A stretch of 41,202 nt of DNA, taken from NCBI GenBank assembly GCA_021813505.1, contig JAKAKI010000082.1:1-41202 (forward strand). Reading direction: 5' to 3'. The notes below the pieces were generated by a model. The model was given only the letters and a program-made list of their open reading frames with translations. It was not told the origin of the DNA and did no database searches. Both the position numbers and the translations under genes were made by a program. Shown here piece after piece: positions 15,097-40,986 of this stretch. The DNA comes from a bacterium (GTDB lineage Bacteria; Zixibacteria; MSB-5A5; WJJR01). How positions within the stretch are numbered: the first letter of the stretch is position 1; every line of letters starts with the position of its first letter.

Positions 15097-15489
15097 ATGA
15101 AAAGATTCTTGCGGCAGTTTCGTTGGAGGTGCGCTGCGAGGGGGACACGGGGCATCACCCTGGTGGAGGTTCTGGCCGCCATGACGATTCTGGCGCTGGG
15201 ACTTCTGGCGTTGATGCCGATGGCGGTGACGACGATTTCCGCCAACGGGATCGCCCGTGAAACACGCGGCGCAATGGAACAGATTCAAAACCGGATGGAG
15301 CGCTTCCGGCTCCAGGATTCGGTCGTGGCCGGCACGGAGATCGACTCGACATCGGGGATGAGCACATCCTGGTGGACCGAAGACGCCGGCACCAACCTGA
15401 AGAAACTGGTGATCGAAGTGAATTGGGCGGGCGACGACGGCATGGCCCATCGCCAGCGCGGGTCGGCGCTGCTCTACAAGAAATCATAG
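15097..15489 (+). CDS. Type IV pilus minor pilin, PilV-like (module 1)
   Basis: The product is 130 aa. It is a prepilin with a basic leader, cleavage after Gly19 (RG-ITLVEVLAAM) and Glu at mature position 5, then a hydrophobic helix (LAAMTILALGLLALMPMAVT). The PilD peptidase would process it. PilV-like proteins join the minor-pilin priming complex at the pilus tip. ATG 15097 is preceded by GGCGGGAG; earlier in-frame starts would put about 75 residues before the prepilin leader. It is the first gene of a pilV-pilW-pilX trio and is followed by a 7-bp tandem repeat. A paralogue is at 18611-19018. Confidence 0.85.
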   Translation: MKRFLRQFRWRCAARGTRGITLVEVLAAMTILALGLLALMPMAVTTISANGIARETRGAMEQIQNRMERFRLQDSVVAGTEIDSTSGMSTSWWTEDAGTNLKKLVIEVNWAGDDGMAHRQRGSALLYKKS

Positions 15490-15523
15490 GGGCAAGGGGC
15501 AAGGGGCAAGGGGCAAGGGGCAA
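15489..15523 (+). repeat. Five perfect tandem copies of a 7-bp unit (GGGGCAA)
   Basis: The unit GGGGCAA is repeated five times from the last base of the pilV stop codon into the pilV-pilW spacer, followed by a degenerate copy (AGGGCGG) that leads into GGAGGAAG, the presumed ribosome-binding site of the next gene. Unit length 7 is not a multiple of 3, but the repeat is outside the reading frames. Copy number could alter spacing or mRNA structure. Confidence 0.9.
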
Positions 15524-15549
15524 AGGGCGGAGGAAGTACGGGAAAGCCA

Positions 15550-16419
15550 ATGTACAGCGAACTCAAGAAGGATGCGCCCCGGTGGGCGATCGGGCGCGCC
15601 GGCGGCCGGCGGCTGGATCATGCCATCGGCGAGTCGGGCATGACGATTCTGGAACTGTTGATAGTCACCATCATCGGACTGGCCGTGACCTCGGCAGCGC
15701 TTGGAGCGTACGTGCGGATGAACGACCAATCGGTCATGCAAGACCAGATTGTGGAAATGGAACAATCGGGGCGGGCAGCCGAGCGGGTGTTGTCACAACG
15801 CATTCGGATGGCCGGCTTCGGCCTGCCGACGAAACTGGCGCCAATGACGGGACAGGACACCAATCCGGATACGATCACGGTCACCGCCCTGGACCCACCG
15901 ATGTGCCAGGGGTATATGTCGGCCGCCATGATCAACCCAACCAGCACCGTCGTGTGCGCCGGATCGGACCTGAGTTGTTTTGCGCCATCGATGTGGGCAT
16001 ACATCTATGATCCCGTGGCCGACACCGGCGAGTATTTTCAAGTCACCGCGATTTATGGCGGACCGGCTTTGGCGCACGACGCCCATCCGCTGTCGCGGTT
16101 GTACCCGAGCGGATCGCAAGTCTCGCACATCGAGCAGTTTTCCTATTACGTCGACCGGTCCGACACGGCCCACCCGACTCTGATGGAAAGACCGATGGGA
16201 TTGCCGAGCGCGGCGTATGCGGAGAACATCGAGCGGCTCGATTTCTTCTACGTGATGCAGAGCGGCGACACGGTATCGGCGCCCGCGGTGCCGCGCAAAG
16301 TGCGCAATGTGCTGGTGCGTTTGGTGGCCCGCTCCCCGCGCGTGGACAACACAATGGAGCACGACTACCGGCGGCGGATATTCAGTTTCAATGTCAGCGT
16401 GCGGAATCTGGAGTTCTAA
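15550..16419 (+). CDS. Type IV pilus minor pilin, PilW-like (module 1)
   Basis: The product is 289 aa, the usual length for PilW. The prepilin leader ends at Gly30 (GESG-MTILELLIVTII) with Glu at mature position 5, followed by a hydrophobic helix to about residue 50. The body contains EMEQSGRAAERVLSQRIRMA and TNPDTITV, shared in pattern with the second PilW-like protein at 19033-19902 (EMQQSLRVCAEEISSRLRNA, TNPDTIMI). GGAGGAAG lies about 13 bp before the ATG. The gene lies 60 bp after pilV and 2 bp before the PilX-like gene. It probably acts in the minor-pilin tip complex. Confidence 0.85.
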   Translation: MYSELKKDAPRWAIGRAGGRRLDHAIGESGMTILELLIVTIIGLAVTSAALGAYVRMNDQSVMQDQIVEMEQSGRAAERVLSQRIRMAGFGLPTKLAPMTGQDTNPDTITVTALDPPMCQGYMSAAMINPTSTVVCAGSDLSCFAPSMWAYIYDPVADTGEYFQVTAIYGGPALAHDAHPLSRLYPSGSQVSHIEQFSYYVDRSDTAHPTLMERPMGLPSAAYAENIERLDFFYVMQSGDTVSAPAVPRKVRNVLVRLVARSPRVDNTMEHDYRRRIFSFNVSVRNLEF

Positions 16420-16421
16420 CC

Positions 16422-18080
16422 ATGAAGCGGAGAAACACTATGCGCCAGTTGCAGAGCAATGAACGCGGATTTGTGATGATCGTCTGCCTGGGCCTGCTTC
16501 TGATGTTCGGCGTGCTCGGGATCAGCTCGGTCATGCAATCGAGAAGTGACATGGACGTGGCCGGCAATCAGATGCGCGATGTCAGCGCCCTGTACGCGGC
16601 CGAAGCAGGCGCGGAGAAGGCCTACGCGCTGTTCCGTCAGGCGATCGACGCCACAGCGGCTCCTCCCAGCCCGTTGCCCGCAGGAAATTTCACGCTCGAT
16701 CGTTATGCGGTGGATTACTCGTGCGAATCGACCGGGCCGGCGGTGCAGCGCAATCTGACCAGCGGCCCGTACACGGGCCTGTACGGTCTGGTCAATGAGT
16801 ATGACCTCTGGGGACACGCGGTTGGAGGGACAGGAGTTGAGAATCAGGTGCGGGTTCGGATGGAACGCGCACTGATTCCAATCTTCCAGTTTGCGATCTT
16901 CTACGATGACCAGCTTGAGTGGCATCCCGGTCCGCCGATGACATTGAGCGGGCGCGTGCATTCCAATGGCGATACGTATCTTGGTTCCAATAGCGGCCTG
17001 GATATCGATTCCTGGCTGACCGTCGCCGGACGGTTGTTCCACGGCCGTGCCCCTGGGTCGGGACAGGCGCTTGGCACCGGGGCGGTGCGGGTCCGTGACT
17101 CGCATGGGACCTTTCAGAATATGGCCAATGGTGACGGCACATGGCTGGACCACAACGATCCTGATTGGCTGAACAAGTCGACGGTGCGCTGGGGCGGACG
17201 CGTGCAGGATGTCTCCCACGGTGTCACCAGGCTCAGCCTGCCCTTGGAAACCAGCAACGACCCGATCTCGGTAATCAAGCCGTCGGCGGGCGGAAACGCC
17301 GATTCATACGAGAACAAGGCCAACCTGAAGATCCTAAACGGGCAGGCCTTCTGGCAATCGGGCGGAGGCACGTGGTCTGACGTGACGGCGGATATGATCG
17401 CAGAAGGCTCGCTGAGCACATCGACGTTTTATGATGCCCGTGAGCATCGGAACGTCAATGCCGTCAATATCGACGTCTCGAAGCTCAATGCGAGCGCCTA
17501 CTGGCCAATCAATGGCATCGTGTATGCGCGCCAGTCGCAGGGCGCCGGCAATCTCATGGCAACTCGGCTGGTCAACGGATCGACATTGAGGGCGGGACTG
17601 ACGGTTGTGTCGGACAACCCGCTGTACTCGGTCGGCAATTACAATTCGGTCAACAAGAAGCCGGCGGCAATGATGGCCGACGCGTACACGATACTGTCCG
17701 GAGCCTGGAGCGATGCCGCCAGTAGCGGTGCCCTGACCGGGAGGGTGGCAACCAGCACGACCGTGAACGCCGCGTTCATCAGCGGCAATACGAACACCGG
17801 TGGTGGAAGTTACAATGGCGGCGTGGAGAATTTCCCGCGCTTTCTGGAAAAGTGGGACACAAGGACACTCACCTGGAAAGGCTCCATGGTACAGCTCTGG
17901 CAGTCGGTCTATGCCACAAGTGCCTGGTCGTACGGATCGTACTACACTGCACCCAACCGCAACTGGTCGTTTGAAACTGACTTTCTCGATCCCAATAAGC
18001 TTCCCCCCGGCACTCCGGTCGTGAATGCGGTAGTCAAGAAAGGCTGGGCCAACACGGGCGCTCCATTGGCCGGAGGCTAG
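16422..18080 (+). CDS. PilX-like pilus assembly protein (module 1)
   Basis: The product is 552 aa (546 if ATG 16440 is used, which has GCGGAG 7-10 bp upstream). The N-terminus is PilX-like: NERGFVMIVCLGLLLMFGVL, then DVAGNQMRDVSALYAAEAGA. The conserved AAEAGxE motif follows the helix. The long C-terminal part, with GRVHSNGDTYLGSN and repeated Gly/Asn-rich strands, suggests a beta-rich tip domain well beyond the classical PilX length (about 170-200 aa). It lacks the CxxCH motif seen in its counterpart at 19999-22083. A hairpin at 18115-18139 may end this transcription unit. Confidence 0.82.
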   Translation: MKRRNTMRQLQSNERGFVMIVCLGLLLMFGVLGISSVMQSRSDMDVAGNQMRDVSALYAAEAGAEKAYALFRQAIDATAAPPSPLPAGNFTLDRYAVDYSCESTGPAVQRNLTSGPYTGLYGLVNEYDLWGHAVGGTGVENQVRVRMERALIPIFQFAIFYDDQLEWHPGPPMTLSGRVHSNGDTYLGSNSGLDIDSWLTVAGRLFHGRAPGSGQALGTGAVRVRDSHGTFQNMANGDGTWLDHNDPDWLNKSTVRWGGRVQDVSHGVTRLSLPLETSNDPISVIKPSAGGNADSYENKANLKILNGQAFWQSGGGTWSDVTADMIAEGSLSTSTFYDAREHRNVNAVNIDVSKLNASAYWPINGIVYARQSQGAGNLMATRLVNGSTLRAGLTVVSDNPLYSVGNYNSVNKKPAAMMADAYTILSGAWSDAASSGALTGRVATSTTVNAAFISGNTNTGGGSYNGGVENFPRFLEKWDTRTLTWKGSMVQLWQSVYATSAWSYGSYYTAPNRNWSFETDFLDPNKLPPGTPVVNAVVKKGWANTGAPLAGG

Positions 18081-18610: not shown

Positions 18611-19018
18611 ATGGCACAGCGAAGACAAATCCTTGGGGCAATCAGGGCATCAGAGGCCGGACTCACCATGGTCGAGGTTCTGGCGGCGATGATCATCGCG
18701 GCAGTGGGAATCTTGGCACTGGCGCCGATGATGGTGGTTTCGATTCGGGGCAACGGCCATGCAGACAGTCTCACGCAGGCGACGATGATGGCACAAACCA
18801 TGCTGGAGACTCTCAAGCAGCAAAATCCACTGCCCCCGATCCCGTACTCAAACACTGTTGCGGACAGCACAGGAATGACGCAACACGTGGCGATCGACGA
18901 TCACGCGTCGGATGCACAGATCCCGGCGGGTGTGAACCGGCTCTCAGTGACCGTAAGCTGGACAGACCAGGCTGGTGTGAACAGATCGATAGAGTATTCC
19001 ACTTTCCGTGTGCAGTAA
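18611..19018 (+). CDS. Type IV pilus minor pilin, PilV-like (module 2)
   Basis: The product is 135 aa. ATG 18611 is preceded by GAAGGAGAG and gives a short basic leader cleaved after Gly17 (EAG-LTMVEVLAAM), with Glu at mature position 5. The helix AAMIIAAVGILALAPMMVVS matches the first PilV-like protein closely in pattern, and both proteins end in a similar domain (NRLSVTVSWTDQAGVN here, KLVIEVNWAGDDGM there). This supports duplication of the whole module. Its stop codon (19016-19018) overlaps the ribosome-binding site of the next gene, indicating coupling. Confidence 0.85.
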   Translation: MAQRRQILGAIRASEAGLTMVEVLAAMIIAAVGILALAPMMVVSIRGNGHADSLTQATMMAQTMLETLKQQNPLPPIPYSNTVADSTGMTQHVAIDDHASDAQIPAGVNRLSVTVSWTDQAGVNRSIEYSTFRVQ

Positions 19019-19032
19019 GAGGAGACCAACTT

Positions 19033-19902
19033 GTGCTCAAACTGAAGACTATGCAACACCGGATCGTTTGTTTGCTGCGGCAAACACGCGGGATGTCGAT
19101 CATCGAACTCTTGATTGCGGCCCTGCTGTCCGCGATTGTCGCGGGCGCGGCGCTGGACTTTTATGTGACACAGCACGAGAACCTGATCACCCAGGAGAAC
19201 GTCTCCGAGATGCAGCAGTCGTTGCGCGTCTGTGCGGAGGAGATTTCCTCGCGCCTGCGGAATGCCGGCGCCTGCCTGCCGGCGGGACTGCCGGGCCTGC
19301 GCGGCCGGAATACGAATCCCGATACGATCATGATCCGCTACAACGCGGCCCCGCTGTCGCTGACGGTGGGTGATCATACGCAGAAACACCAAGCCAATCC
19401 GGTTCACGTTATGCGATTCAGCGACCTCACTGGGTTTAACGTCGGCGACCGCGTGTACATTTACCGCCCCCCTGCCGGGCCGGGCGAGTGGTTCACGATC
19501 ACCAACATCCAGGACAATCAGGGAGCGGGCTGGAAGGAAATTGCTCACGGCGGGCAAGACTTGATCAATGATCCGATGGCCGGTGACGTCATTCTGAAGC
19601 TGAGTGAAGTGCGCTACTGGATCGATAGGTCGACAGACAGTTTGCACACTCGCCTCATGCGCGAAGTCAACGGCGTGGCGTCGATCTACGCCGATGAAGT
19701 CTTCGACCTGCAGGCATCGTACCGGAAGATCGATGGGACAAGCGTGCCGCAGCCGGCGGTCGGCGACACCATCGTCTCGATCGACTACACGATGGCTGCG
19801 CGAACGGTCAAACGCACGTTGAAGATTGCCGGAGCGGGAGGTACGCTGACCCGGCAGACCAGCACGCATATCCTGCTGCGCAACACTCCGGCGGCCAGTT
19901 GA
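19033..19902 (+). CDS. Type IV pilus minor pilin, PilW-like (module 2)
   Basis: The product is 289 aa from GTG 19033, chosen because AAGAGGAG lies 8 bases upstream. ATG 19051 is the alternative. The leader ends at Gly20 (TRG-MSIIELLIAALL) with Glu at mature position 5. The conserved body motifs NTNPDTIMI, FNVGDRVYIY and VRYWIDRS parallel those of the module-1 PilW (YYVDRSDTAHPTLM). Mature cysteines CAEEISSRLRNAGAC are present here but not in module 1. A GC-rich stem-loop (19923-19955) lies between this gene and the following PilX-like gene. Confidence 0.83.
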   Translation: MLKLKTMQHRIVCLLRQTRGMSIIELLIAALLSAIVAGAALDFYVTQHENLITQENVSEMQQSLRVCAEEISSRLRNAGACLPAGLPGLRGRNTNPDTIMIRYNAAPLSLTVGDHTQKHQANPVHVMRFSDLTGFNVGDRVYIYRPPAGPGEWFTITNIQDNQGAGWKEIAHGGQDLINDPMAGDVILKLSEVRYWIDRSTDSLHTRLMREVNGVASIYADEVFDLQASYRKIDGTSVPQPAVGDTIVSIDYTMAARTVKRTLKIAGAGGTLTRQTSTHILLRNTPAAS

Positions 19903-19922
19903 GCCGCAGCGAATGATACTGA

Positions 19923-19955
19923 TCGGGTCGGCGGCCGGCATCCGGCCGCGCCCGA
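19923..19955 (+). other. GC-rich stem-loop between pilW-like and haem-pilX genes
   Basis: TCGGG..CGGCCGG pairs with CCGGCCG..CCCGA around a short loop. There is no T-run, so it is more likely an mRNA-processing or stability element, or one more interspersed palindrome, than a terminator. Confidence 0.4.
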
Positions 19956-19998
19956 TGACCATAGGCTCAATAGGGTTGAAGCAACGGAGGAGTAAGAG

Positions 19999-22083
19999 AT
20001 GAAACGATACGTAAGCAATGAACGTGGCGCGGTGATGATTGTGGTGCTGGCGGTGCTGCTCATGCTGGGCCTGGTGGGCGCATCGATGATCAGCACCTCC
20101 ACCCAGGACATGGCGATCTCCGACAACTTCAAGCGCGGCTCGCAGGCGTTTTATGCCGCTGAGTCGGGGCTGGAGCTGACGCGCAACAGCCTGTGGTCGC
20201 AATACGTGGCCTCATCGATGGTGACCCCCACGAAGGCGGCCGGGGACGTGGGAACGTACGCGACATATGCCGCCTGGCTTGACGCGCTGGGGCTCGTCGA
20301 TTCCAGCAGTCTCCTCCTCGCGTCGAATCAGACGGTCGCCCATCAGGGCCGGGTCGATTCAGTCCGCGTGGACCGGACCGACATGCCCGGCAACACCGCT
20401 CTTGAGCTAAAGGTCAGATCTTACGGTTCCGATGGAGTCCGTTCCAATGAAATGGTCACCGAGGTGCTGCAAATCGGTTCCGGCGTGTTCTCCGGATTCG
20501 ATTTCGCCATTCTGGCCAAGAACATCAATTGCATCATGTGCCATGCACGCGTCGACAACGCCAAGCGGTTCTACAATACGGACGTGACCAAACAGGACTC
20601 ATTCGACCGCGTCAAGGTGGCTTCGCTGGAAAGCATGCTCATCCGCACCACGAGTGCGGATTCCTACATCGCCGGCACTCTCTACACGCGCGGCATCGTG
20701 ACCGACAAGAGCGGAGTCCCGATTACAGACCTGTCCCCCACCAACAAGGGTGTTGAGGCGTGGGCGTGCACGGACGGGACAATCGATGAACCGCTGACAC
20801 CGGAGAAGATGACGAACACGACGGGATCGCCGTTGCCGGCATACGGCAATCTCTACCTGAACTATCCCACGAATGCGGCGGACATGACCGACGGGCCGCT
20901 GCCGACGTCCTTTCCGTCGGCGATCCCTGACGTCAACAACAATCGCATCGTCGACGCATCCGAATTCACAGAAATCGCGTCGACCGCCACGGGCCAGATT
21001 CAGGGCGGAATCATCTACGGCGTGCCGGCGGGAGGGAGCTACGCCGGGGCCGCGCTCCCAGGAGCCGGGAATGAGGCCAGCGTCAACGGGAATTACGCAG
21101 GCAACCTGATTCTCGTCGGCACCGATGCCAATCCCATTGTGATCAATTCGAAGGTCGCGGTCGATGGAGATGTGATCATCAAAGGTAAGATCAGCGGCGA
21201 CGGGCAGATATTCGCCAAGGGCAATGTCTATGTCGTGGGCGATGTCACCTACACTGACGGAAGCGCCGCCGGCAACCGGACATTTGGAGTGAGTGCAGAC
21301 GGCAGCTACAATGCCTTGTCGCTTGCGGCGGGCGGAAATATCATGGTCGGCGATTATTTGACACCGGGAGGCGGCAATATCCTCGATGTCAATAGCCGTG
21401 ATGCCGGAGATGGCACCTCGAGTTTCTCGTTCACCATGTCGGAAATCACGCTGTTCAATCGAGGTGAGTGGTCAAGAACGCAGGCGACGCTCCCGGGCGC
21501 AGGAGGAACAGTGGTTGCAAACCCGGAGTATGATCCCACTTACATCCCGCGCTACTACACGCTCGGAGCCGGTGATCCTGTGTACATCTATAACAAGAAC
21601 CCAATCAGCAAAGGAAAGAACAACGGCACTTACTATGATCCAGCGACGCGAAGCTGGAAAGGCAAGGAGCACGTGGGCAGTTACGATACGACCATGCTCA
21701 CGAAGATCAACGTGGGAGACCCGCGGCTGGCATCGGCTGTCCGGTTGAATCTTGCGCCCAATGCGACGTGGCTGACTGAGGCGCAATTAAAACAGTTCTC
21801 AATCAACGATGAAAACGCGCGGGTGGCAGGAACGGCATTCCAATTCGACGGCCAATTGTACACGAACAATTCCATCTTTTCCCTGACCCGTTCGGCATCG
21901 AAGACAGCGGGCAAGATGCAGGTCAATGGGTCAATCGTCGCCTCCGATATCGGAATCCTGGTCCCGGTGGAACTTCGCGTGAATTATGACAGCAGACTGC
22001 GCTCGAAGCTGCAAATCGCCAGCAACGAGGCGATCTTCTTAACCCGTGTTTCATGGCTGGCCCAACAGTCGACGGATTATTGA
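19999..22083 (+). CDS. PilX-like pilus protein with a CxxCH haem c motif (module 2)
   Basis: The product is 694 aa. GGAGGAGTAAGAG precedes the ATG. The N-terminus is PilX-like: NERGAVMIVVLAVLLMLGLV, then FKRGSQAFYAAESGLEL. After a short linker comes ILAKNINCIMCHARVDNAKR, in which C178, C181 and H182 form a canonical c-type haem attachment site. This is the only CxxCH in the protein. The C-terminal half has beta-solenoid-like strands (INSKVAVDGDVIIKGKISGD, GQIFAKGNVYVVGDV) resembling polymer-forming repeats. Because PilX-type proteins sit at or near the pilus tip on the periplasmic or outer face, haem attachment by the Ccm/Ccs system is topologically possible. A structural zinc or disulphide role for CxxCH remains open. 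The module-1 paralogue lacks the motif. Confidence 0.82.
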   Translation: MKRYVSNERGAVMIVVLAVLLMLGLVGASMISTSTQDMAISDNFKRGSQAFYAAESGLELTRNSLWSQYVASSMVTPTKAAGDVGTYATYAAWLDALGLVDSSSLLLASNQTVAHQGRVDSVRVDRTDMPGNTALELKVRSYGSDGVRSNEMVTEVLQIGSGVFSGFDFAILAKNINCIMCHARVDNAKRFYNTDVTKQDSFDRVKVASLESMLIRTTSADSYIAGTLYTRGIVTDKSGVPITDLSPTNKGVEAWACTDGTIDEPLTPEKMTNTTGSPLPAYGNLYLNYPTNAADMTDGPLPTSFPSAIPDVNNNRIVDASEFTEIASTATGQIQGGIIYGVPAGGSYAGAALPGAGNEASVNGNYAGNLILVGTDANPIVINSKVAVDGDVIIKGKISGDGQIFAKGNVYVVGDVTYTDGSAAGNRTFGVSADGSYNALSLAAGGNIMVGDYLTPGGGNILDVNSRDAGDGTSSFSFTMSEITLFNRGEWSRTQATLPGAGGTVVANPEYDPTYIPRYYTLGAGDPVYIYNKNPISKGKNNGTYYDPATRSWKGKEHVGSYDTTMLTKINVGDPRLASAVRLNLAPNATWLTEAQLKQFSINDENARVAGTAFQFDGQLYTNNSIFSLTRSASKTAGKMQVNGSIVASDIGILVPVELRVNYDSRLRSKLQIASNEAIFLTRVSWLAQQSTDY

Positions 22084-25205: not shown

Positions 25206-25337
25206 TCTAGAACTCATCCCAAAAATCGAATTTGAGGGACGGACAAGTTCAAAGCCCTCGTCATTCCACCTATGAGAGTCACCGAAGCAAACGACATGCC
25301 AGAACCCCGAACGTGAATTTTGGGATGGCTTCTAGAA
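25206..25337. mobile_element. Possible small inverted-repeat (MITE-like) insertion
   Basis: CATCCCAAAAATC on the left (25215-25227) and CATCCCAAAATTC read on the opposite strand on the right (about 25314-25326) are 12/13 identical inverted ends. TCTAGAA occurs just outside both ends (25206-25212 and 25331-25337) and could be a target-site duplication, although the 6-bp TCTAGA core is itself palindromic. There is no coding capacity. The right copy of TCTAGAA contains the stop codon of the haem-porin gene. Confidence 0.35.
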
Positions 25338-26600
25338 GTCGAAGTCGAGCAGGGCGGCGAATTGATGCTGTTTTGCAATCGTCGTATATCCTGTCTCCCG
25401 GTACGTGTATTCGCCGTGGAGGGCAACGTTTACGGCGGTCCAATCACCGAGGTAATAACGCACCAGCGTGGAAATCGCTCGCACGCGGCTGGATTTGTCG
25501 AAATCCGGGGGCGTGATCCAGTTGAACATGGCGGAGGCGACCATTCGATTATTGGGCAGAGCGGCCCAGTCGAGCCGGCCGAAGCCACCGGTGAAGTGGT
25601 ACTTGCCCTGGCTTACGGCTCTGACCGGACCGATGGCCTTATCATCGGAGCCGTACATGAATAGCGCCTGAAGGTTGAACGTGTTGTAGTTCAGGCTGGC
25701 ATGGCCCCCGATTCGGTAGAACGATTTGTTGATCTTGCCATCGCCGTCTCCTGTCGCGCCGCTGAATGGGACCATGAGTGAAGTCGGAACCCAGCCGAGA
25801 TAGCCGAAGGCGCCGACCCTCTGGCCGCTACTCTGGCCTTCGCCTCGGCCGAATGTCTTGGAAACGTTTGCATACAGGTCTTTGGCGTTGTTGTTGTCTG
25901 GATTCGCGCCGCTGCCATTCACGATACCAGCAGCGTATTTGATTCCCTCTCTGAAGTGGCCGGTGGCTTCGATGCCGATCTGATTGTCGGCGAAGACAAA
26001 GTTGTTCCCCGGCGTGGAGAATTCGTAGACCTCGTACGGTTGCAGCAAGTAATACGACCGTTTCGAACTGATCGCCTGGTACCCCGGCTCGAAGCGGCCG
26101 ACGCGCAGGCTGAGCACATCCTGCACAAGATTGCTGAAGACCAGGTTCGCCGACTCGAGCGCACCCGGTTGGCTGGGGTCCATCGACCCGACGCTGGCGT
26201 AACCGGCACGGGGTTCGTCGATACGAGGCGTGTAGATCATGAGGAACGAGATGTTTTTGTGCATCACACCCGCGGCCAACAGGTCGAGGCCATTCAGATG
26301 AAAACCGGAGGTTGTGCTCTTTGAGTCCGGTTCGTGCATAATCATAAGCCCGGTCGAAGTGCGCAACGAGATGGGTGGGAAGGTCTCGAAGACCGTCTTC
26401 TCGAGACCCTCCTGTCCGGGCTGCTGGTATCCATTGTCGCGGAAGCGCTGGCCGTAGTCGTTGAGTTTGGTGAAAGAGGTATGGCACATATTGCAATTGA
26501 AGCCATACTTCCGGGCCAGTGCCGGAATCGCCTGACTCGGTTCGGGCAGAAGAACCAGCAGGGTCAGGGCGCTGACTATGAGAAGTGTTAGTCGTTTCAC
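25332..26600 (-). CDS. Outer-membrane porin with N-terminal CxxCH haem motif
   Basis: The product is 422 aa from GTG 26600, chosen because GGGAGGGACC precedes it and a Sec signal peptide follows (KRLTLLIVSALTLLVLLPEP, then SQA-I). An upstream ATG at 26657 would overlap the preceding gene. Immediately after the signal is KYGFNCNMCHTSFTKLNDYG, with C36, C39 and H40 forming one c-type haem site. The remainder (about 60-422) is a long beta-strand barrel (FLMIYTPRID, VQDVLSLRVGRFEPGYQAIS, ALFMYGSDDKAIG) ending in Phe, as outer-membrane proteins do (LLDFDF). It follows the dihaem peroxidase gene by 13 bp. A monohaem plug or entry haem for an outer-membrane electron or solute path is inferred. Confidence 0.82.
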   Translation of the reverse strand: MKRLTLLIVSALTLLVLLPEPSQAIPALARKYGFNCNMCHTSFTKLNDYGQRFRDNGYQQPGQEGLEKTVFETFPPISLRTSTGLMIMHEPDSKSTTSGFHLNGLDLLAAGVMHKNISFLMIYTPRIDEPRAGYASVGSMDPSQPGALESANLVFSNLVQDVLSLRVGRFEPGYQAISSKRSYYLLQPYEVYEFSTPGNNFVFADNQIGIEATGHFREGIKYAAGIVNGSGANPDNNNAKDLYANVSKTFGRGEGQSSGQRVGAFGYLGWVPTSLMVPFSGATGDGDGKINKSFYRIGGHASLNYNTFNLQALFMYGSDDKAIGPVRAVSQGKYHFTGGFGRLDWAALPNNRMVASAMFNWITPPDFDKSSRVRAISTLVRYYLGDWTAVNVALHGEYTYRETGYTTIAKQHQFAALLDFDF

Positions 26601-26613
26601 GTCGGGTCCCTCC

Positions 26614-27684
26614 CTACTTGGGCAGCTCGGCTGCGGGAATCGGTTTGACATCGGCAACTTCCGGATTGGTGCTGGTCATGGCGCGGGTCATGAACGCCAC
26701 CAGCGCTTTGATTTCGGTTTCCGACAGACCGAGCGGAAGCATCATGGGATCGAGATTGGCATCCTCGGGGCCACCGCCGCGATTGTAAAGGCGCACGACA
26801 TCCTCCAGAGTTTGTTCCTTACCGGTGTGCAGGTACGGGGCTCTGGCGGCGACATCGCGAATGGTCGGGGTTTTGAATGCGCCGAAATCTCTTTCGCTCT
26901 TGGTTACGGCGCGCCGGCCTTCATCAGGCTTGCCGGGTTCAATCGGTTCGACGCCAAGGTTGTGGAAGCGGCCATCGCTGAGCTGTCCTCCCCAGTGGCA
27001 GGCCGAGCAGTGGCCCTTGCCATTGAAGATCTCGAGACCCTGCTTTTCAAGTGGGGTCAGCGCCGAGACATCGCCCTGAACGAATCGGTCGAACGGAGAA
27101 TCAGTCGTGACAACGGTACGCTCGAACGCGGCGATGGCCTGCGCCACTTGATCAACGGTTATGGGACTGGTTCCGAATACCGATTTGAACTCGGTGACAT
27201 AACCGGGGATGTCGTTGAGCGTCCGGAGCATGGCATCGTGGGTGTTTCCCATTTCGATGGGGTTTTGGATTGGCCCTTTCGCCTGCTCCTCGAGCGTTGG
27301 GGCACGGCCGTCCCAGAATTGCAGGCGGCTGTGCGCGGCATTCACGACCGGCGGAGAACGTCGGCCGCCCATCTGGCTATTGATGCCCTTGCTGGTCGGG
27401 CCTGAGTCGGACCAACCTTTCGATGGATCGTGACAGGTGGCGCAACTGACCGTGTTGTCCTTCGAGAGGCGGGTGTCGAAGTAGACTTTCTTCCCGAGGA
27501 GAATCTTGGCGCTGGTCTGGGGATTGTCAGCAGGTGCTATGACGGGCGGCAGGTTGCCGACACGAACCGGTCCATGCGCGACGACGCCTGATTCCGTGAT
27601 CGGAACTTGCGGGTTTTCCGCCCAGGCAAGGGCGACCAGGAGTGCGGACCCTAAAATCACCAGGAAGAACAAAGACCGTTGCAT
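26614..27684 (-). CDS. Dihaem cytochrome c peroxidase family protein (CcpA/MauG superfamily)
   Basis: The product is 356 aa with a Sec signal peptide (about residues 1-22). Two haem c sites are present: CATCH at 81-85 and CSACH at 226-230. Family signatures include LGKKVYFDTRLSKDNTVSCA, FWDGRAPTLEEQAKGPIQNP, AIAAFERTV and GAFKTPTIRDVAARAPYLHT. These periplasmic enzymes reduce hydrogen peroxide with electrons from small cytochromes or, in MauG-like members, oxidise protein residues; the sequence does not settle which. AAAGGAGGACTC precedes the ATG. It is the first gene of a two-gene operon with the haem porin. A TATAAC -10-like box is at 27733-27738. Confidence 0.92.
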   Translation of the reverse strand: MQRSLFFLVILGSALLVALAWAENPQVPITESGVVAHGPVRVGNLPPVIAPADNPQTSAKILLGKKVYFDTRLSKDNTVSCATCHDPSKGWSDSGPTSKGINSQMGGRRSPPVVNAAHSRLQFWDGRAPTLEEQAKGPIQNPIEMGNTHDAMLRTLNDIPGYVTEFKSVFGTSPITVDQVAQAIAAFERTVVTTDSPFDRFVQGDVSALTPLEKQGLEIFNGKGHCSACHWGGQLSDGRFHNLGVEPIEPGKPDEGRRAVTKSERDFGAFKTPTIRDVAARAPYLHTGKEQTLEDVVRLYNRGGGPEDANLDPMMLPLGLSETEIKALVAFMTRAMTSTNPEVADVKPIPAAELPK

Positions 27685-35241: not shown

Positions 35242-36543
35242 TTACTTGCCGGATTCGGTCGAGCCCATCATGGCGGCATCGACGATCTGCGGCGTGACGA
35301 AGATCACGAGGTCGCGGCTCTTGACGTCCTTCTTTTCATAGCTGAAGATCTTGCCCAGGATCGGGATGTCTTTGAGGATTGGCAGTCCGACGCGGTTGAC
35401 AACCTCTTCCTGGCTGGTCAGGCCACCGATGACGGCGGTCTGGCCATTGGCGACGACCACGTTGGTTTCGGCGTTATTCGTGTTGATGATGACGCCGTTC
35501 GGGTCGAACGCGTACGAGGAGCGCTCGGGCTTCATGTAGAGCAAGATACGGTCCTCGGAGGTGATGTGCGGGGTGACGCGCAGGATGGTCCCGACTTCCT
35601 CGAAGGTGATCACGATATCGCCCGTGGCGGAGAACTGTTTGATCGGGACTTTCTGACCCATCTGGATGCGCGCTTCCTTGTTGTCGACGGTGATGATTTC
35701 CGGATGCGCGATGATCTTGCCTTTGCCCGAGGAAATGATGGCCGAGATGGTGGCATCCATGTTCCAGCCACGCTGCAGCGTGGAGAATTTGTAGGTTGCA
35801 AATGGATCGGCCACGCGGCCGGCACCTTGGGCGCTGAGTTCATTGGTGTACTGATTCCCGTGGTTAACGCCCGTGGTGAATGTATTCCAACTGATGCCCA
35901 TTTCGTCGAGGTACTCCGATGCCACTTCCATAAGCTTCGCGGAAATCTTCACTTGGCGGGTTTCACGGTCGAGTCCGGCGACCAGTTCTCTGACGCGCGC
36001 GACATTGCCCGGCTCGTCGGTCACCAGCAGGGTATTGGTGCGTTCATCGACGTCAACCTTGCCACGGCCGGACAGAACACTCTTGATCGGTTTGATCAGA
36101 TCCCGGGCGGAAGCGAATTTGATATCGATGGTCTTGGTCTCAAGATCCACCAGTTGGCGTTGATCGGACGCATGGCGTTCGCGGTCGGATTCTTCCTTGA
36201 TGAAATCCGCCAGCAGGAGGACGCGAATGTATCCGGACTCGTCAACGACTTTGAGACCGTAGGTTTTGGCCAGAATCTCGAGTGCCTGCCGCCATTCGAC
36301 ATTCTTCAAGTTCAAGGTCACCTGACCCTGGACAGTGGGCGCGGCCACGACGTTGACGCCACCGTATTCGGCCAGGAAGTTCAGCACGGAACGGACGTCA
36401 GCGTTCTGGAAATTCACATTCTTGATGGCCTCGGCGCCGACCGTCAGTGGGGCGAGCACGATCAGGGCGCTAATGCCCGTCATCAATGCCCAGCCAACGA
36501 AGGGGGCCTGCGCCATCCATCGGCGGTTGCGACTCGGACTCAT
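35242..36543 (-). CDS. pilQ: Type IV pilus secretin PilQ (short form without AMIN domains)
   Basis: The product is 433 aa, far shorter than typical PilQ (about 650-770 aa). After a signal peptide (about 15-37) comes an STN/N0-like domain (IKNVNFQNADVRSVLNFLAE, about 40-110). An N1/NolW-type domain follows (IDIKFASARDLIKPIKSVLS, about 135-205, with TNTLLVTDEPGNVARVRELV). The secretin core (about 210-425) contains VPIKQFSATGDIVITFEEVG and TAVIGGLTSQEEVVNRVGLP. The peptidoglycan-binding AMIN domain normally found in PilQ is missing here and is instead in the preceding gene, which overlaps by 4 bases. PilQ forms the outer-membrane pore for the pilus. Confidence 0.93.
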   Translation of the reverse strand: MSPSRNRRWMAQAPFVGWALMTGISALIVLAPLTVGAEAIKNVNFQNADVRSVLNFLAEYGGVNVVAAPTVQGQVTLNLKNVEWRQALEILAKTYGLKVVDESGYIRVLLLADFIKEESDRERHASDQRQLVDLETKTIDIKFASARDLIKPIKSVLSGRGKVDVDERTNTLLVTDEPGNVARVRELVAGLDRETRQVKISAKLMEVASEYLDEMGISWNTFTTGVNHGNQYTNELSAQGAGRVADPFATYKFSTLQRGWNMDATISAIISSGKGKIIAHPEIITVDNKEARIQMGQKVPIKQFSATGDIVITFEEVGTILRVTPHITSEDRILLYMKPERSSYAFDPNGVIINTNNAETNVVVANGQTAVIGGLTSQEEVVNRVGLPILKDIPILGKIFSYEKKDVKSRDLVIFVTPQIVDAAMMGSTESGK

Positions 36544-38519
36544 GGGTTTACACCTTCCGTTTTGGGTGTCTGATTCATATTCGGACTCTGTTTCACTTCC
36601 TGCTCTTCACTTGGGCTCTGGTATTCTAATTGCACCGGGCTCTTAGCGCCGAGAGACTTCGTCGGGTCGGAACCCCGGGAGGTCAACTGCAACGCGACAA
36701 GGTGGGTCCAGCCGAAATCCTGGACACGGAACAGAACCCGGTTTTCCTCGATCGCCGCCACGGTGCCGTTCTCGACTTTGTCGCCCAGGCGAAGGACGTA
36801 TCCATAGCCTTCCTGGTTCTCAAAGAGAGCGAGCGATTCGCGATCATCACGCAGCACACCGACAAGGCGGAGGTTCTCGACGCTGGGGAGTTCATTGCTG
36901 ACGAACCCCGAATGCAACCCCTTGACGAGCGGGGCAAACGGATCGCGGCGGCCCATGTCGTCATAGATGACGTTCTCACGCATCGACAGACTGGCGGAGG
37001 CCACAAGGTCTCCCTCGCCGCTCACACGGCCACCGGACAGACCGGCGGAAGCAGCCGCCTCGCGCACCCGGGCGAGCAATTCCTCGCGGGAGAGCATGGT
37101 GGGCGGAGTCGGCGGACCATACGCGGCAACAGCCGTGCTGTCCCCGATCACAGCGCCAGTCGCCGGAAGTTCGATTGATTGGTACGGACGCGGCGGAGTC
37201 TGCTCCGAGAAGAACTTGGTTCTCAGCCGTTCGAATAGGGTCTCTTGCGAATTGGACGCCAGCGTATCGCCCGGCCGCACCGTGCCCTTCTTGGTTGCCA
37301 GAGGCAGGGTGGTGGTGGACGCCAGCGCTGGACTGCTCTCATCCTCTTCGGTCGAGGCCGTAGTTGTGCTGCCAGCCTCGGACGGCGACTTGGGGCCAAT
37401 CGGGGTCATCGATACCTGCGACACCGGGACCTTCTCCGATTCGGCCGTCGTGCCGGTGGCAGCTTCCTGCGCGTCACCAAACAGATACTCTGGAGCCAGG
37501 ACGAGCGGAATCTTGGGAACCACATAACCGGACGTCGATGGGGTCTGATCGGTGGTACCGGTCATCACCGTCGGTGCGGTCGTGGTCGCCGTCAGCGGCT
37601 TCGAAGGTTCTGTCTGATTGAAAGTATAAGGATCCTTCGGCGTCGGATTGTCAAAGGACGTCGAAGCGGCCTTGGTTTCTGTCGTGGGCTTCGCCGGGGT
37701 CGTGCCCGCGAATTCGGCCGGCGCCGTTGCCGGCTCTTCGGTCGCAAATGACTTGGCCGGTTTTGCCGGCGGTTGAACCTGGACTGGCTTGGTGGCCGCC
37801 GTTTGAGCTGTGGCGACGACCGGCTCGGTCTTTGCCGCCGGTTTGGGCGTCTCGACCGTCATGGGAGCGGCAGGTTTTGACGGCGCCGCGGCAACGGATG
37901 TAGACGGCGCTGTCTTGGGCGTCGTAACTGTCTTGGCCGGAGCCGTCGTTGTCGCAACCGTCTGATTAGGTGTGGTGGAAACCGCCGGCTTTTCCGTCTT
38001 GGCAGCCGGCGTCACGGGCTTGGATGGAGTCGTCGCCGCGGGTGCCGTCGCCAGAGTGGCGGAGCCGTGATTGGCTTCCCAGGCAGTGAAGGACGCACGG
38101 TTCGGATCGACGACCTTAATAAGCAGATCATTCTGCTGCGCATTGACCGTGTAGGTGGCGGACTTGCGCAGGTCGAGAACCACGCGCACAACTTTCTGCG
38201 GGGATTCTGTGTACTGGCTGGTACGGATCCGCGAAATGACCGTCGCCGGCAGCGCGTCGAACGACTGCTGGCCGAGCGCATGCTCGGCGTCACAGAAGTC
38301 GAGGACGATCCGGAACGGATGCTTATCGCTCGGTTCCTGGGACGAATGGTCACAGAGGAGCCGTGCGGCACCGGGGACCAGCAATTCGGTGAATCCCTCC
38401 TGCCCGCGCAGGATCAGATTCGACACGGGTGTGGCGCCCCAGGCTCCCGTAATGGGAAGCAGCAGGAAGAGCATTCCGGCGAGGACGCCAGCCAACCAAG
38501 GGTGTTTCCCTGAATTCAT
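36540..38519 (-). CDS. pilP: AMIN-domain and PilP fusion protein
   Basis: The product is 659 aa from ATG 38519 (GGAG 7 bases upstream; an in-frame TTG lies 4 codons earlier). A signal peptide (about 1-29) is followed by an AMIN domain (about 30-140: FRIVLDFCDAEHALG, VVRVVLDLRKSATYTVNAQQ, NDLLIKVVDP). A roughly 300-residue linker rich in Pro, Thr, Ala and Lys follows. A C-terminal PilP domain (522-613) has MGRRDPFAPL, LRLVGVLRDDRESLALFENQ and GYVLRLGDKVENGTVAAIEE. PilP couples the PilMNO inner-membrane complex to PilQ, and AMIN domains bind peptidoglycan. The protein could thus span the periplasm alone. Its stop overlaps the pilQ start (ATGA). Confidence 0.9.
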   Translation of the reverse strand: MNSGKHPWLAGVLAGMLFLLLPITGAWGATPVSNLILRGQEGFTELLVPGAARLLCDHSSQEPSDKHPFRIVLDFCDAEHALGQQSFDALPATVISRIRTSQYTESPQKVVRVVLDLRKSATYTVNAQQNDLLIKVVDPNRASFTAWEANHGSATLATAPAATTPSKPVTPAAKTEKPAVSTTPNQTVATTTAPAKTVTTPKTAPSTSVAAAPSKPAAPMTVETPKPAAKTEPVVATAQTAATKPVQVQPPAKPAKSFATEEPATAPAEFAGTTPAKPTTETKAASTSFDNPTPKDPYTFNQTEPSKPLTATTTAPTVMTGTTDQTPSTSGYVVPKIPLVLAPEYLFGDAQEAATGTTAESEKVPVSQVSMTPIGPKSPSEAGSTTTASTEEDESSPALASTTTLPLATKKGTVRPGDTLASNSQETLFERLRTKFFSEQTPPRPYQSIELPATGAVIGDSTAVAAYGPPTPPTMLSREELLARVREAAASAGLSGGRVSGEGDLVASASLSMRENVIYDDMGRRDPFAPLVKGLHSGFVSNELPSVENLRLVGVLRDDRESLALFENQEGYGYVLRLGDKVENGTVAAIEENRVLFRVQDFGWTHLVALQLTSRGSDPTKSLGAKSPVQLEYQSPSEEQEVKQSPNMNQTPKTEGVNP

Positions 38520-38546
38520 AGAGTTCTCCAACCCTCTCCCCTTTGC

Positions 38547-39143
38547 TTAGAGGCCCGCCAGTACGATTTTTTCTGACTCTTTCACCTGGTAGGTCGAGAT
38601 GTTCATGGTCACGGTCATCGTGAACCCGGCGTTCTTGGTGATGGGATTGTCCTGCTCCGAAACGGTGATCATGTGGACCTCACCGATATTGACGATGAAC
38701 GGCAGGTTGGAAATCCGGGCCAGGAAATCGCCGAAGTCGTGATAGGTGGTGTGCAACACCATCTTAAAGTCATACCGGTCGTAGAATCCTTCGGACACGC
38801 TGGGCTGTGGTTCGAATGAAGCCACGCGCGATGAGGTTTCCAGCGCGGCGCCGTGAACCTTCTCCAGCAGAGGGGCGAGTTCGTCCTCTTCGGGAAGGAG
38901 CATGGACGCCGAGCGGTATTTCTGGGTCAGTTCCTGATACTCACGTTTCAGGGCGTCGAGCGAGCGGAACTTCATCTCGACGTTCTTCAACTCGGTCTGC
39001 ATGGTTTCGTAGCGGGCATAGCCGGTGCTCAACTGCTCCTGGTTGGCCTTGTAGACTTTGGCATGCCAGAAATAGACGGCCAGGCAGGCCACGAGAGCGC
39101 CGAGCATCCACTTTTGGGTCTTGGGATCTTTGAAGTCCATCAT
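38547..39143 (-). CDS. pilO: Type IV pilus inner-membrane protein PilO
   Basis: The product is 198 aa. A short cytoplasmic segment is followed by one transmembrane helix (about 12-27), a coiled coil (about 31-85, YARYETMQTELKNVEMKFRS) and a ferredoxin-like periplasmic domain (FKMVLHTTYHDFGDFLARIS, NIGEVHMITVSE). PilO pairs with PilN to form the periplasmic heterodimer that binds PilP. AGGTGG precedes two adjacent ATG codons; either may be used. It lies between pilN (30 bp) and the AMIN-PilP gene (27 bp from stop to ATG). Confidence 0.92.
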   Translation of the reverse strand: MMDFKDPKTQKWMLGALVACLAVYFWHAKVYKANQEQLSTGYARYETMQTELKNVEMKFRSLDALKREYQELTQKYRSASMLLPEEDELAPLLEKVHGAALETSSRVASFEPQPSVSEGFYDRYDFKMVLHTTYHDFGDFLARISNLPFIVNIGEVHMITVSEQDNPITKNAGFTMTVTMNISTYQVKESEKIVLAGL

Positions 39144-39173
39144 TCATCCACCTGTCAGGCGTTGAAAGGCGCC

Positions 39174-39926
39174 CTACTGAAGTCCTTCCCCACCGCTTCC
39201 GGGCTTGGAACCCGCGTTCAGATCAGCGCGGGCCGCCGCGGTCGTGTCACCCATGTCGCCGGTTTCGGCGGGGCGGTTCTCGATATCTTTGATGCCCCTC
39301 TCGACCGGTTCAAGCTGGCAGCCAACCTCAAATGAATAGACCGGCCGATCCTTGATCGTCGTCAGCTTGGCGAACTTCAGCCGGATGTTCGAAAACCGCG
39401 GCGAGTCCTGCAAGTTGACGATGAAATTGGACAGGCTGGCCAGTGTGAAGCAGTACCCGTCCAGGGTCAGCGCATTCTTCGCAGACGACGCGGAATCGGC
39501 CGGGGACGCACCCTGAGGAGGCCCCATGACCTTTCCAGCGGAGTTCACGATACCCTGGCGGAACTCGGACACCCAGAGGAAGTCCGGAATCACGATCGAG
39601 AGATCCTCGATGTTCTGGACCCAGGCGCCACGGTTGCGGTCGAGTGCCTCGATGGCGTTCATCCGTTTGAGGATGCGGGTTTTCACATCCACGAGATGAT
39701 CGACCATCTGGATGTCGCTGCGCATGCTGGCGGTCTTGGACTCGACCTGGGCGATCTCGGAATTGAGATTCCCCAGGCGAATCTTCTGGTAGTAGGTGAT
39801 CGCCGCCAGCGCTGCCACGAGAAGAACTGCAGCGGCGAGACCACCCACAGCCGTCTTGGAGACTCGGAGTCCGCCCGACCCTCGGCGCAATTCCTTGGGG
39901 AGCAGATTGATTTGAATCATCGCCAT
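39174..39926 (-). CDS. pilN: Type IV pilus inner-membrane protein PilN
   Basis: The product is 250 aa from ATG 39926, 1 bp after the pilM stop, with GAGG about 10 bases upstream. ATG 39920 is the alternative. The N-terminal MIQINLLPKELR motif binds the PilM groove. One transmembrane helix lies at about 26-46, then a coiled coil (NSEIAQVESKTASMRSDIQM) and a ferredoxin-like domain (LDGYCFTLASLSNFIVNLQD). The C-terminal tail (about 215-250) is rich in Ala, Gly and Asp and probably disordered. Confidence 0.93.
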   Translation of the reverse strand: MAMIQINLLPKELRRGSGGLRVSKTAVGGLAAAVLLVAALAAITYYQKIRLGNLNSEIAQVESKTASMRSDIQMVDHLVDVKTRILKRMNAIEALDRNRGAWVQNIEDLSIVIPDFLWVSEFRQGIVNSAGKVMGPPQGASPADSASSAKNALTLDGYCFTLASLSNFIVNLQDSPRFSNIRLKFAKLTTIKDRPVYSFEVGCQLEPVERGIKDIENRPAETGDMGDTTAAARADLNAGSKPGSGGEGLQ

Positions 39927-39927
39927 A

Positions 39928-40986
39928 TTAATAGACCTCGCGGGCCGCAAGCCCCACCCCGACGGCCAGCACCGGGGCAATCTTTTCTGGTTCGAGTTCG
40001 CCGAACAGGTCCGGATCGTATTCGATGTTTCGCAACGGATTGGCGATTTCGATCGGCACGTTCAGTTTCGACTGGACGCTTTCGGGCAGGAACGGAATCA
40101 GCGCTCCGCCGCCCGACAGGACGATCCAGTCCACCGCATCGGTCTTCGCCAGCGTCTTGAAATACGAGAAAGCGACTTCCAGGCCGGTCAGAAGCTCATC
40201 GGCCGCCGAACGGATCGTGGCACGCAGCATGTCGTGGTCGACGGTGCCTTCGAGTTCACCTCGGATGACCTTCATGGTCATTTCCTGATTGAGGCGGAAC
40301 TCGCGCTGGATCACCTCGTAGATGACCCGGCCGCCGGACGAGATGTCGCGGGTGGAGTGGTACACGCCGTCCTTAAGGAAGACGACGTTCGTCGTGTCGA
40401 AGCCGATGTTGATGAGGGCCGTGACACGGTCGGGATCAATGTCGTAGTTGATGGCGTAGGCGTTGAGGACGGCGAAGGCATCGGTATCGACCACCGGCGT
40501 GCGCAGGCCGGCATCGCGCAGGAGATTCAGATACTCCATCACGATTTCGCGGCGCGCGGCCACCAGCAGGACTTCCATCTTGCCCCGGGCATCGTCGGCT
40601 CGGAGGACATGGTAGTCCATCGACACGTCGTCGACGTCAAACGGGCTGCGCTGTTCGGCCTCGAACAGGATCGCCTGCTCCGCCTCGGAGCCGGACTTCT
40701 GGTCCACCTCGAATTTGTCCGTGATCACGCCGTGACCGGAGATGGAGACCACCACATCGGTCGTGCGCGGATCGCACTGGTCGAGGAGGCCCTGAATGTT
40801 AAAGATGACCGCATCGCGGTCCTTGATTTCGTCAGAGACCAAAGCTTCGATTGGCAGCTCGCGAATGCCGGCGGCAGCCAGGGCGAATCCTTCGGCCCGA
40901 CGATCCAGACGCACGTACTTGATGGAACTGGCACCGATGTCCAGTGCCGCGACAGATTTCGCCCGACGTCGAAACGGTAGCCGCAT
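39928..40986 (-). CDS. pilM: Type IV pilus assembly ATPase-like protein PilM
   Basis: The product is 352 aa. It is a cytoplasmic actin-fold protein that binds the N-terminus of PilN. Phosphate-1 motif VAALDIGASSIKYVRL (12-27), TALINIGFDTTNVVFLKDGV and the adenosine-motif region DWIVLSGGGALIPFLPESVQ are all intact. GGGGAG lies about 4 bases before the ATG. It is the first gene of the operon and follows a sigma-28-like promoter and a hairpin in the leader. Confidence 0.95.
   Translation of the reverse strand: MRLPFRRRAKSVAALDIGASSIKYVRLDRRAEGFALAAAGIRELPIEALVSDEIKDRDAVIFNIQGLLDQCDPRTTDVVVSISGHGVITDKFEVDQKSGSEAEQAILFEAEQRSPFDVDDVSMDYHVLRADDARGKMEVLLVAARREIVMEYLNLLRDAGLRTPVVDTDAFAVLNAYAINYDIDPDRVTALINIGFDTTNVVFLKDGVYHSTRDISSGGRVIYEVIQREFRLNQEMTMKVIRGELEGTVDHDMLRATIRSAADELLTGLEVAFSYFKTLAKTDAVDWIVLSGGGALIPFLPESVQSKLNVPIEIANPLRNIEYDPDLFGELEPEKIAPVLAVGVGLAAREVY

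Follow-up and report, generated by a model that had tools for sequence, protein, structure and literature searches.

One gene in a 41,202-nucleotide stretch of DNA from an uncultured Zixibacteria bacterium (the window, meaning the whole stretch that was analysed) probably encodes a minor pilin that caps the pilus tip, as ComZ, GspK and PilX-type subunits do, and that has a single covalent haem c at the junction between two of its domains, where the cofactor would most likely act as a structural element or a switch. The open reading frame (19999..22083, + strand; 694 amino acids) starts with ATG behind a ribosome-binding site, ACGGAGGAG, and its assignment as a PilX/ComZ-like prepilin draws on the translation, on Pfam, on AlphaFold models and on a match to ComZ. 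As in PilX minor pilins, the N-terminal domain scores above the Pfam cut-off for PilX_N (PF14341; 30.5 bits against 25.5) and the gene follows those for PilV and PilW, but the protein is several times larger than classical PilX and differs from it in having a solenoid and a CxxCH motif. A prepilin leader, MKRYVSNERG (19999..20028, + strand), precedes a mature N-terminus, AVMIV, that lacks a glutamate at position 5 (Glu5); the same glutamate is absent from all 65 readable family rows, some of which are repeat fetches from the same genome.

Inspection of the translation confirms what the earlier note had picked out in this PilX-like protein, namely a CxxCH haem c attachment motif, C178-I-M-C181-H182, encoded at 20530..20544 (+ strand). 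The whole protein contains three cysteines and three histidines. Composition-preserving shuffles of its sequence produced a CxxCH in 3e-5 of trials, and the expectation rises to ~1.4e-3 under generous frequencies of 1% Cys and 2% His; a chance origin of the motif is ruled out by these shuffles together with its conservation. Searches of Pfam and NCBIfam returned no cytochrome family for the protein, and the DUF7305-type homology that had been suggested for it found no counterpart in Pfam. The motif lies within a stretch of residues 164-232 (20488..20694, + strand), delimited by conservation and predicted to join the pilin head to the solenoid, that matches no Pfam or NCBIfam family and in which R204, K206, L210, G226, R231 and G232 are invariant in addition to the two cysteines and the histidine.

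Conservation of the CxxCH among homologues had been set beforehand as a test of the haem proposal. Relatives were gathered by protein and profile searches of whole genomes and by a scan of one named collection; the latter took MCHA and DxNxN peptides as its anchors, and the conservation argument uses the profile searches only. All sequences of shown origin come from metagenome-assembled genomes. Within Zixibacteria, 11 of 132 genomes hold a relative, one of them an N-terminal fragment, and the motif is present in all ten sequences that cover the site. Hydrogenedentota yielded a match in 43 of 68 genomes, with CxxCH in every sequence read over the site, and Planctomycetota in 16 of 246 sampled genomes, some of these matching in the solenoid only, with CxxCH in 10 of the 12 sequences read. 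The motif is thus found in 52 of the 54 full-length relatives compared from the three phyla, and in 42 of 42 sequences (Zixibacteria, Hydrogenedentota and L039) that remained after clustering at 90%, which have a median pairwise identity of 44%. Across this clustered set, C178, C181 and H182 are the sole invariant cysteines and histidine, and no other 20-residue block is conserved as strongly as residues 166-185 around them. These counts agree with the haem proposal and, as far as sequence comparison can carry the argument, suggest that three phyla share pilus subunits with built-in haem. In a tree of the 54 sequences, Zixibacteria and Hydrogenedentota each form one clade; a sequence labelled Nitrospiraceae bacterium (L045) branches with Hydrogenedentota, the group in which its genome also falls.

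Two sequences are exceptions. Although the profile was built from motif-bearing sequences, it also recovered two Planctomycetota proteins (L099 and L100) in which Asp, Asp and Arg replace Cys, Cys and His, while the flanks are retained (ADSIDRVLDRATFDNADR...ARVKVG...SGTLYT). Both are nested among CxxCH-containing members with support of 100/98 in the 54-sequence tree, and the joint loss of all three residues fits a single function shared by them, with the long branch on which the two proteins sit counselling caution. This pattern bears on a haem-free account of the motif, in which C178 and C181 would form a disulphide, or would bind a metal together with H182, and so staple the junction. A lone CxxCH can indeed be a false positive for haem, but H182 is as invariant as either cysteine and disappears along with them, the family offers no further invariant Cys- or His-type metal ligand, and the host, which exports the protein, possesses the Ccm maturation system. 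We consider a haem-free motif improbable, and attachment of haem to C178 and C181 likely.

The Ccm system attaches haem at CxxCH motifs of exported proteins. Both export and maturation are available to this family, the first through the prepilin signal and the second through CcmF-like, CcmC and CcmE proteins in the host and ResB in Hydrogenedentota. Examination of the host genome shows CcmC and CcmE encoded near each other on one contig, along with two CcmF/NrfE-type haem lyases. A genome devoid of such a system had been named in the earlier note as a ground for refutation, and the search result runs against it; several multihaem cytochromes are present too. The largest, a 1099-residue protein with some 20 paired-CxxCH matches, is encoded in the host assembly (G000) on contig C18 at 117337-120330 with further multihaem reading frames nearby, and several smaller multihaem proteins accompany it in the genome. 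Among the 68 Hydrogenedentota genomes, 64 encode a Cytochrom_C_asm protein. Only one genome that has the pilin gene (G102) is without it; the ResB gene of that genome lies 1.5 kb from a contig start, and in the neighbouring genome G100 the ResB and Cytochrom_C_asm genes are 1.4 kb apart, so the exception is likely a gap at a contig edge. Because maturation is nearly universal in the sampled Hydrogenedentota, with or without the pilin gene, its co-occurrence with that gene is uninformative, permitting haem attachment but giving no proof of it, and we dropped it as an argument.

To place the motif within a fold, we considered two AlphaFold2 models, one of the 694-residue protein (pLDDT 75) and one of a Hydrogenedentota orthologue (pLDDT 74) that is ~39% identical to it. 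Both models give the same order of elements (helix, four strands, solenoid, last strand), with the beta-solenoid inserted into the pilin head ahead of the last strand at middling confidence. In the model of the window protein, an N-terminal helix extends to about residue 73 and is followed by four pilin-head strands (104-163), and the CxxCH falls in a loop (177-182) through which the chain passes into the solenoid domain; the motif is therefore predicted to be separated by four head strands from the membrane helix, rather than lying directly after it as the earlier note had placed it. The solenoid core (residues 333-451; 20995..21351, + strand) is modelled with pLDDT mostly between 90 and 95 and gives weak, sub-threshold Pfam matches to MinC_C and FapA. 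For both models the only significant fold match in the PDB was ComZ of Thermus thermophilus (6QVI, three chains; E 5e-8 and 3e-6). Whole-chain superposition on ComZ is poor (TM-score 0.2-0.3, rmsd 16-19), and we accordingly claim a common layout only, the orientation of the domains being unsupported by the comparison. No cytochrome fold appeared among the fold-search matches of either model, and a viral fold library returned nothing significant.

The shared layout is suggestive as to where the subunit sits. ComZ is likewise a large minor pilin in which a solenoid is inserted before the last pilin strand, an arrangement argued to fit only at the pilus tip (PMC6561018). It differs in that the window protein has no match to PDB chains by sequence (a profile search reached E 1.9 at best), and in that the ComZ paper mentions no haem. 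GspK, the type II secretion minor pseudopilin that caps the tip of its complex (PMC4471445), offers a second point of comparison: it too is the third member of an I-J-K-like set, lacks Glu5 and bears a large domain inserted in its head. In contrast to the window protein, GspK has neither a beta-solenoid nor a haem, and the NCBIfam model for it (NF037980) scores the 694-residue protein at 22.6 bits, far below its cut-off of 130.

Inspection of the genes upstream shows that the PilV- and PilW-like partners described earlier are real. A PilV/GspI-like prepilin (18611..19018, + strand; AG/LTMVEV; TIGR02523 below its cut-off) and a PilW/GspJ-like prepilin (19051..19902, + strand; RG/MSIIEL; N_methyl just below cut-off) both have Glu5 in their prepilin motifs. 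Partner genes of these types occur in most of the named relatives as well: of 14 resolved named neighbourhoods, 11 have a pair of Glu5 prepilins immediately upstream and two more have a single one there. The combination of a subunit without Glu5, two preceding Glu5 prepilins in the GspI-J-K order and the capping role of GspK leads us to infer a tip cap, and the absence of Glu5 together with a solenoid in the pilin head suggests that the protein would cap the initiation complex and stay at the tip. A tip location for the PilX-like subunit, one of the two (tip or base) first proposed, is thus probable on the basis of the ComZ fold match and the missing Glu5.

The window contains two tandem PilV-PilW-PilX sets, of which the first (15097-18080) lacks the haem motif and the second (18611-22083) has it. 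The first set, outside the haem unit, consists of genes at 15097-15489, 15550-16419 and 16422-18080, all on the + strand. Its third gene had been presented as a paralogue without the motif. The CxxCH is indeed absent from the product, but its status as a copy does not hold: the two proteins match over residues 1-59 only, indicating that 16422-18080 encodes another PilX-type prepilin and not a haem-less copy, and with only the first ~60 residues shared the missing motif says little. The same product weakly resembles the hormogonium polysaccharide protein HpsA, at a score under the cut-off. Genes for the type IV pilus alignment proteins PilM, PilN, PilO and an AMIN/PilP-like protein occupy 36540..40986 on the - strand (PF11104, PF05137, PF04350 and the AMIN family PF11741 over cut-off; PF04351, PilP, weak). 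A further gene (5314-11127, - strand) encodes a protein of 1937 residues, probably a lipoprotein, in which a papain-family protease domain is combined with Ig-like and many fibronectin III domains. In four Hydrogenedentota loci (L040, L042, L043 and L045), the gene for the haem pilin is followed downstream by one for an exported protein of ~300 residues marked by DTVxFKDGxxLDG; in the L043 copy, HEAT repeats score above the cut-off of Pfam.

A haem c bound through CxxCH would take its proximal iron ligand from H182. For the distal side, H558, within [DE]EHxxxY (21670..21672, + strand), is a candidate by partial conservation: Zixibacteria and the majority of Hydrogenedentota retain it, most Planctomycetota lack it, one member has Cys at the position and several have other residues. 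Its absence from most Planctomycetota rules it out as a universal ligand, and methionines at 213/214 are ruled out by L045 and L046, which have neither. No distal ligand common to all members emerged from the compared sequences, leaving H558 as a candidate for part of the family only. The lack of a universal sixth ligand means that some members may have an open site, and this, with a position at a domain junction well suited to a switch, would agree with a haem that senses gas or redox state, so that the tip would change its conformation, and hence its adhesion or retraction, when the haem is oxidised or binds O2, NO or CO. Such a sensor is quite unlikely in our estimate, as most Zixibacteria and Hydrogenedentota have H558 available as a sixth ligand, and any path for the signal would be hypothetical.

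A second conserved element lies between the junction and the solenoid core. An Asp/Asn-rich, EF-hand-like loop, DVNNNRIVDASE (residues 311-322; 20929..20964, + strand), has an invariant first and last residue, D311 and E322, and may bind calcium. A functional precedent is TfcP of Myxococcus xanthus, a protein with a single CxxCH that is encoded in a minor pilin gene cluster with PilY1, is needed for pilus formation and is judged an unlikely electron carrier, providing an example of haem in pilus biogenesis outside electron transfer (PMC8833165). The similarity, with the invariant-ended loop, raises the alternative that the window protein has a redox-inert haem domain of this sort built into the pilin, where it would help the tip complex to fold or to take up calcium. 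TfcP itself is soluble, resides in the periplasm, has the fold of a cytochrome c and a signal peptide I of its own, is not a prepilin, is not found in pili and is known only from Myxococcales (PMC8833165), whereas the motif of the 694-residue protein sits inside a prepilin. The host genome, which does have PilM, PilN and PilO, gave no match to PilY1 (PF05567), an absence that is not firm since the control genomes were equally silent. On balance we hold this alternative to be of low probability.

The earlier note had suggested that the protein could, as a haem-bearing tip or base subunit, link the pilus with electron transfer. Of that proposal, the conserved haem c site and a probable place at the tip survive; the electron-transfer link fares less well, there being one haem per subunit, no multi-CxxCH neighbour and no universal distal ligand. 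Part of its context holds up, as the window does encode a dihaem peroxidase of the CCP/MauG family (PF03150). The adjoining gene (25335-26657, - strand), described as a haem-porin, specifies an exported protein of 441 residues with one CxxCH near its N-terminus (ALARKYGFNCNMCHTSF) and a barrel-like remainder; the haem motif is there, the porin assignment found no family match in Pfam or NCBIfam, and from its sequence the protein is possibly a cytochrome-porin fusion. These two proteins, the 1099-residue multihaem protein and its smaller companions in the host, and the strict retention of the motif in most lineages are what favour a tip haem that passes electrons to whatever the pilus touches (minerals, partner cells or outer-surface cytochromes), as a contact-dependent redox probe. 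Against this, a single haem per subunit cannot wire the full length of a pilus, none of 15 neighbourhoods of the haem-motif gene, each up to 22 kb, contains a reading frame with at least two CxxCH motifs, and the variable distal side implies a redox potential that is apparently not tightly kept. We judge this explanation somewhat unlikely. A wider version, in which a hitherto undescribed type IV pilin family of at least three phyla holds a covalent haem at the tip within a fold other than that of cytochromes and engages in contact-dependent redox chemistry that probes a surface or discharges electrons to it, is unlikely. The presence of one haem, the lack of multihaem genes in the 15 loci, the absence of a fixed distal ligand and the tolerated loss of the motif in one lineage tip the balance slightly away from electron transfer and towards a structural or redox-responsive role at the junction.

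Under the preferred reading, a haem-bearing tip minor pilin, the prepilin would be anchored in the inner membrane and its body would extend into the periplasm, where the Ccm machinery would join haem to C178 and C181. Prepilin peptidase would cut after G10, and the subunit, without Glu5 and with a solenoid in its head, would cap a GspI-J-K-like initiation complex of PilV, PilW and PilX and remain at the tip of the filament. Lying between head and solenoid, the haem would most likely hold the two in a fixed orientation to each other, or tune that orientation in a redox-dependent manner; one-electron transfer at the tip would be the main alternative use. Multihaem cytochrome nanowires, which are polymers of multihaem cytochromes and not of pilins, likewise place haem in an extracellular filament, but here there would be one haem in a probable tip subunit.

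Judged by sequence and model, the protein appears to be a tip pilin related in kind to ComZ, GspK and PilX, in which the haem is the new part; our search, which covered published open-access papers, turned up no pilin with a haem c. The part played by type IV pili in redox chemistry has been debated for many years, mostly with respect to major pilins free of cofactors, and pilins that almost invariably keep a haem c site offer that debate a sharp, testable case. Within the literature searched, even a purely structural haem, if true, would be new for a pilin, and it would add one more fold to those served by the cytochrome c maturation machinery.
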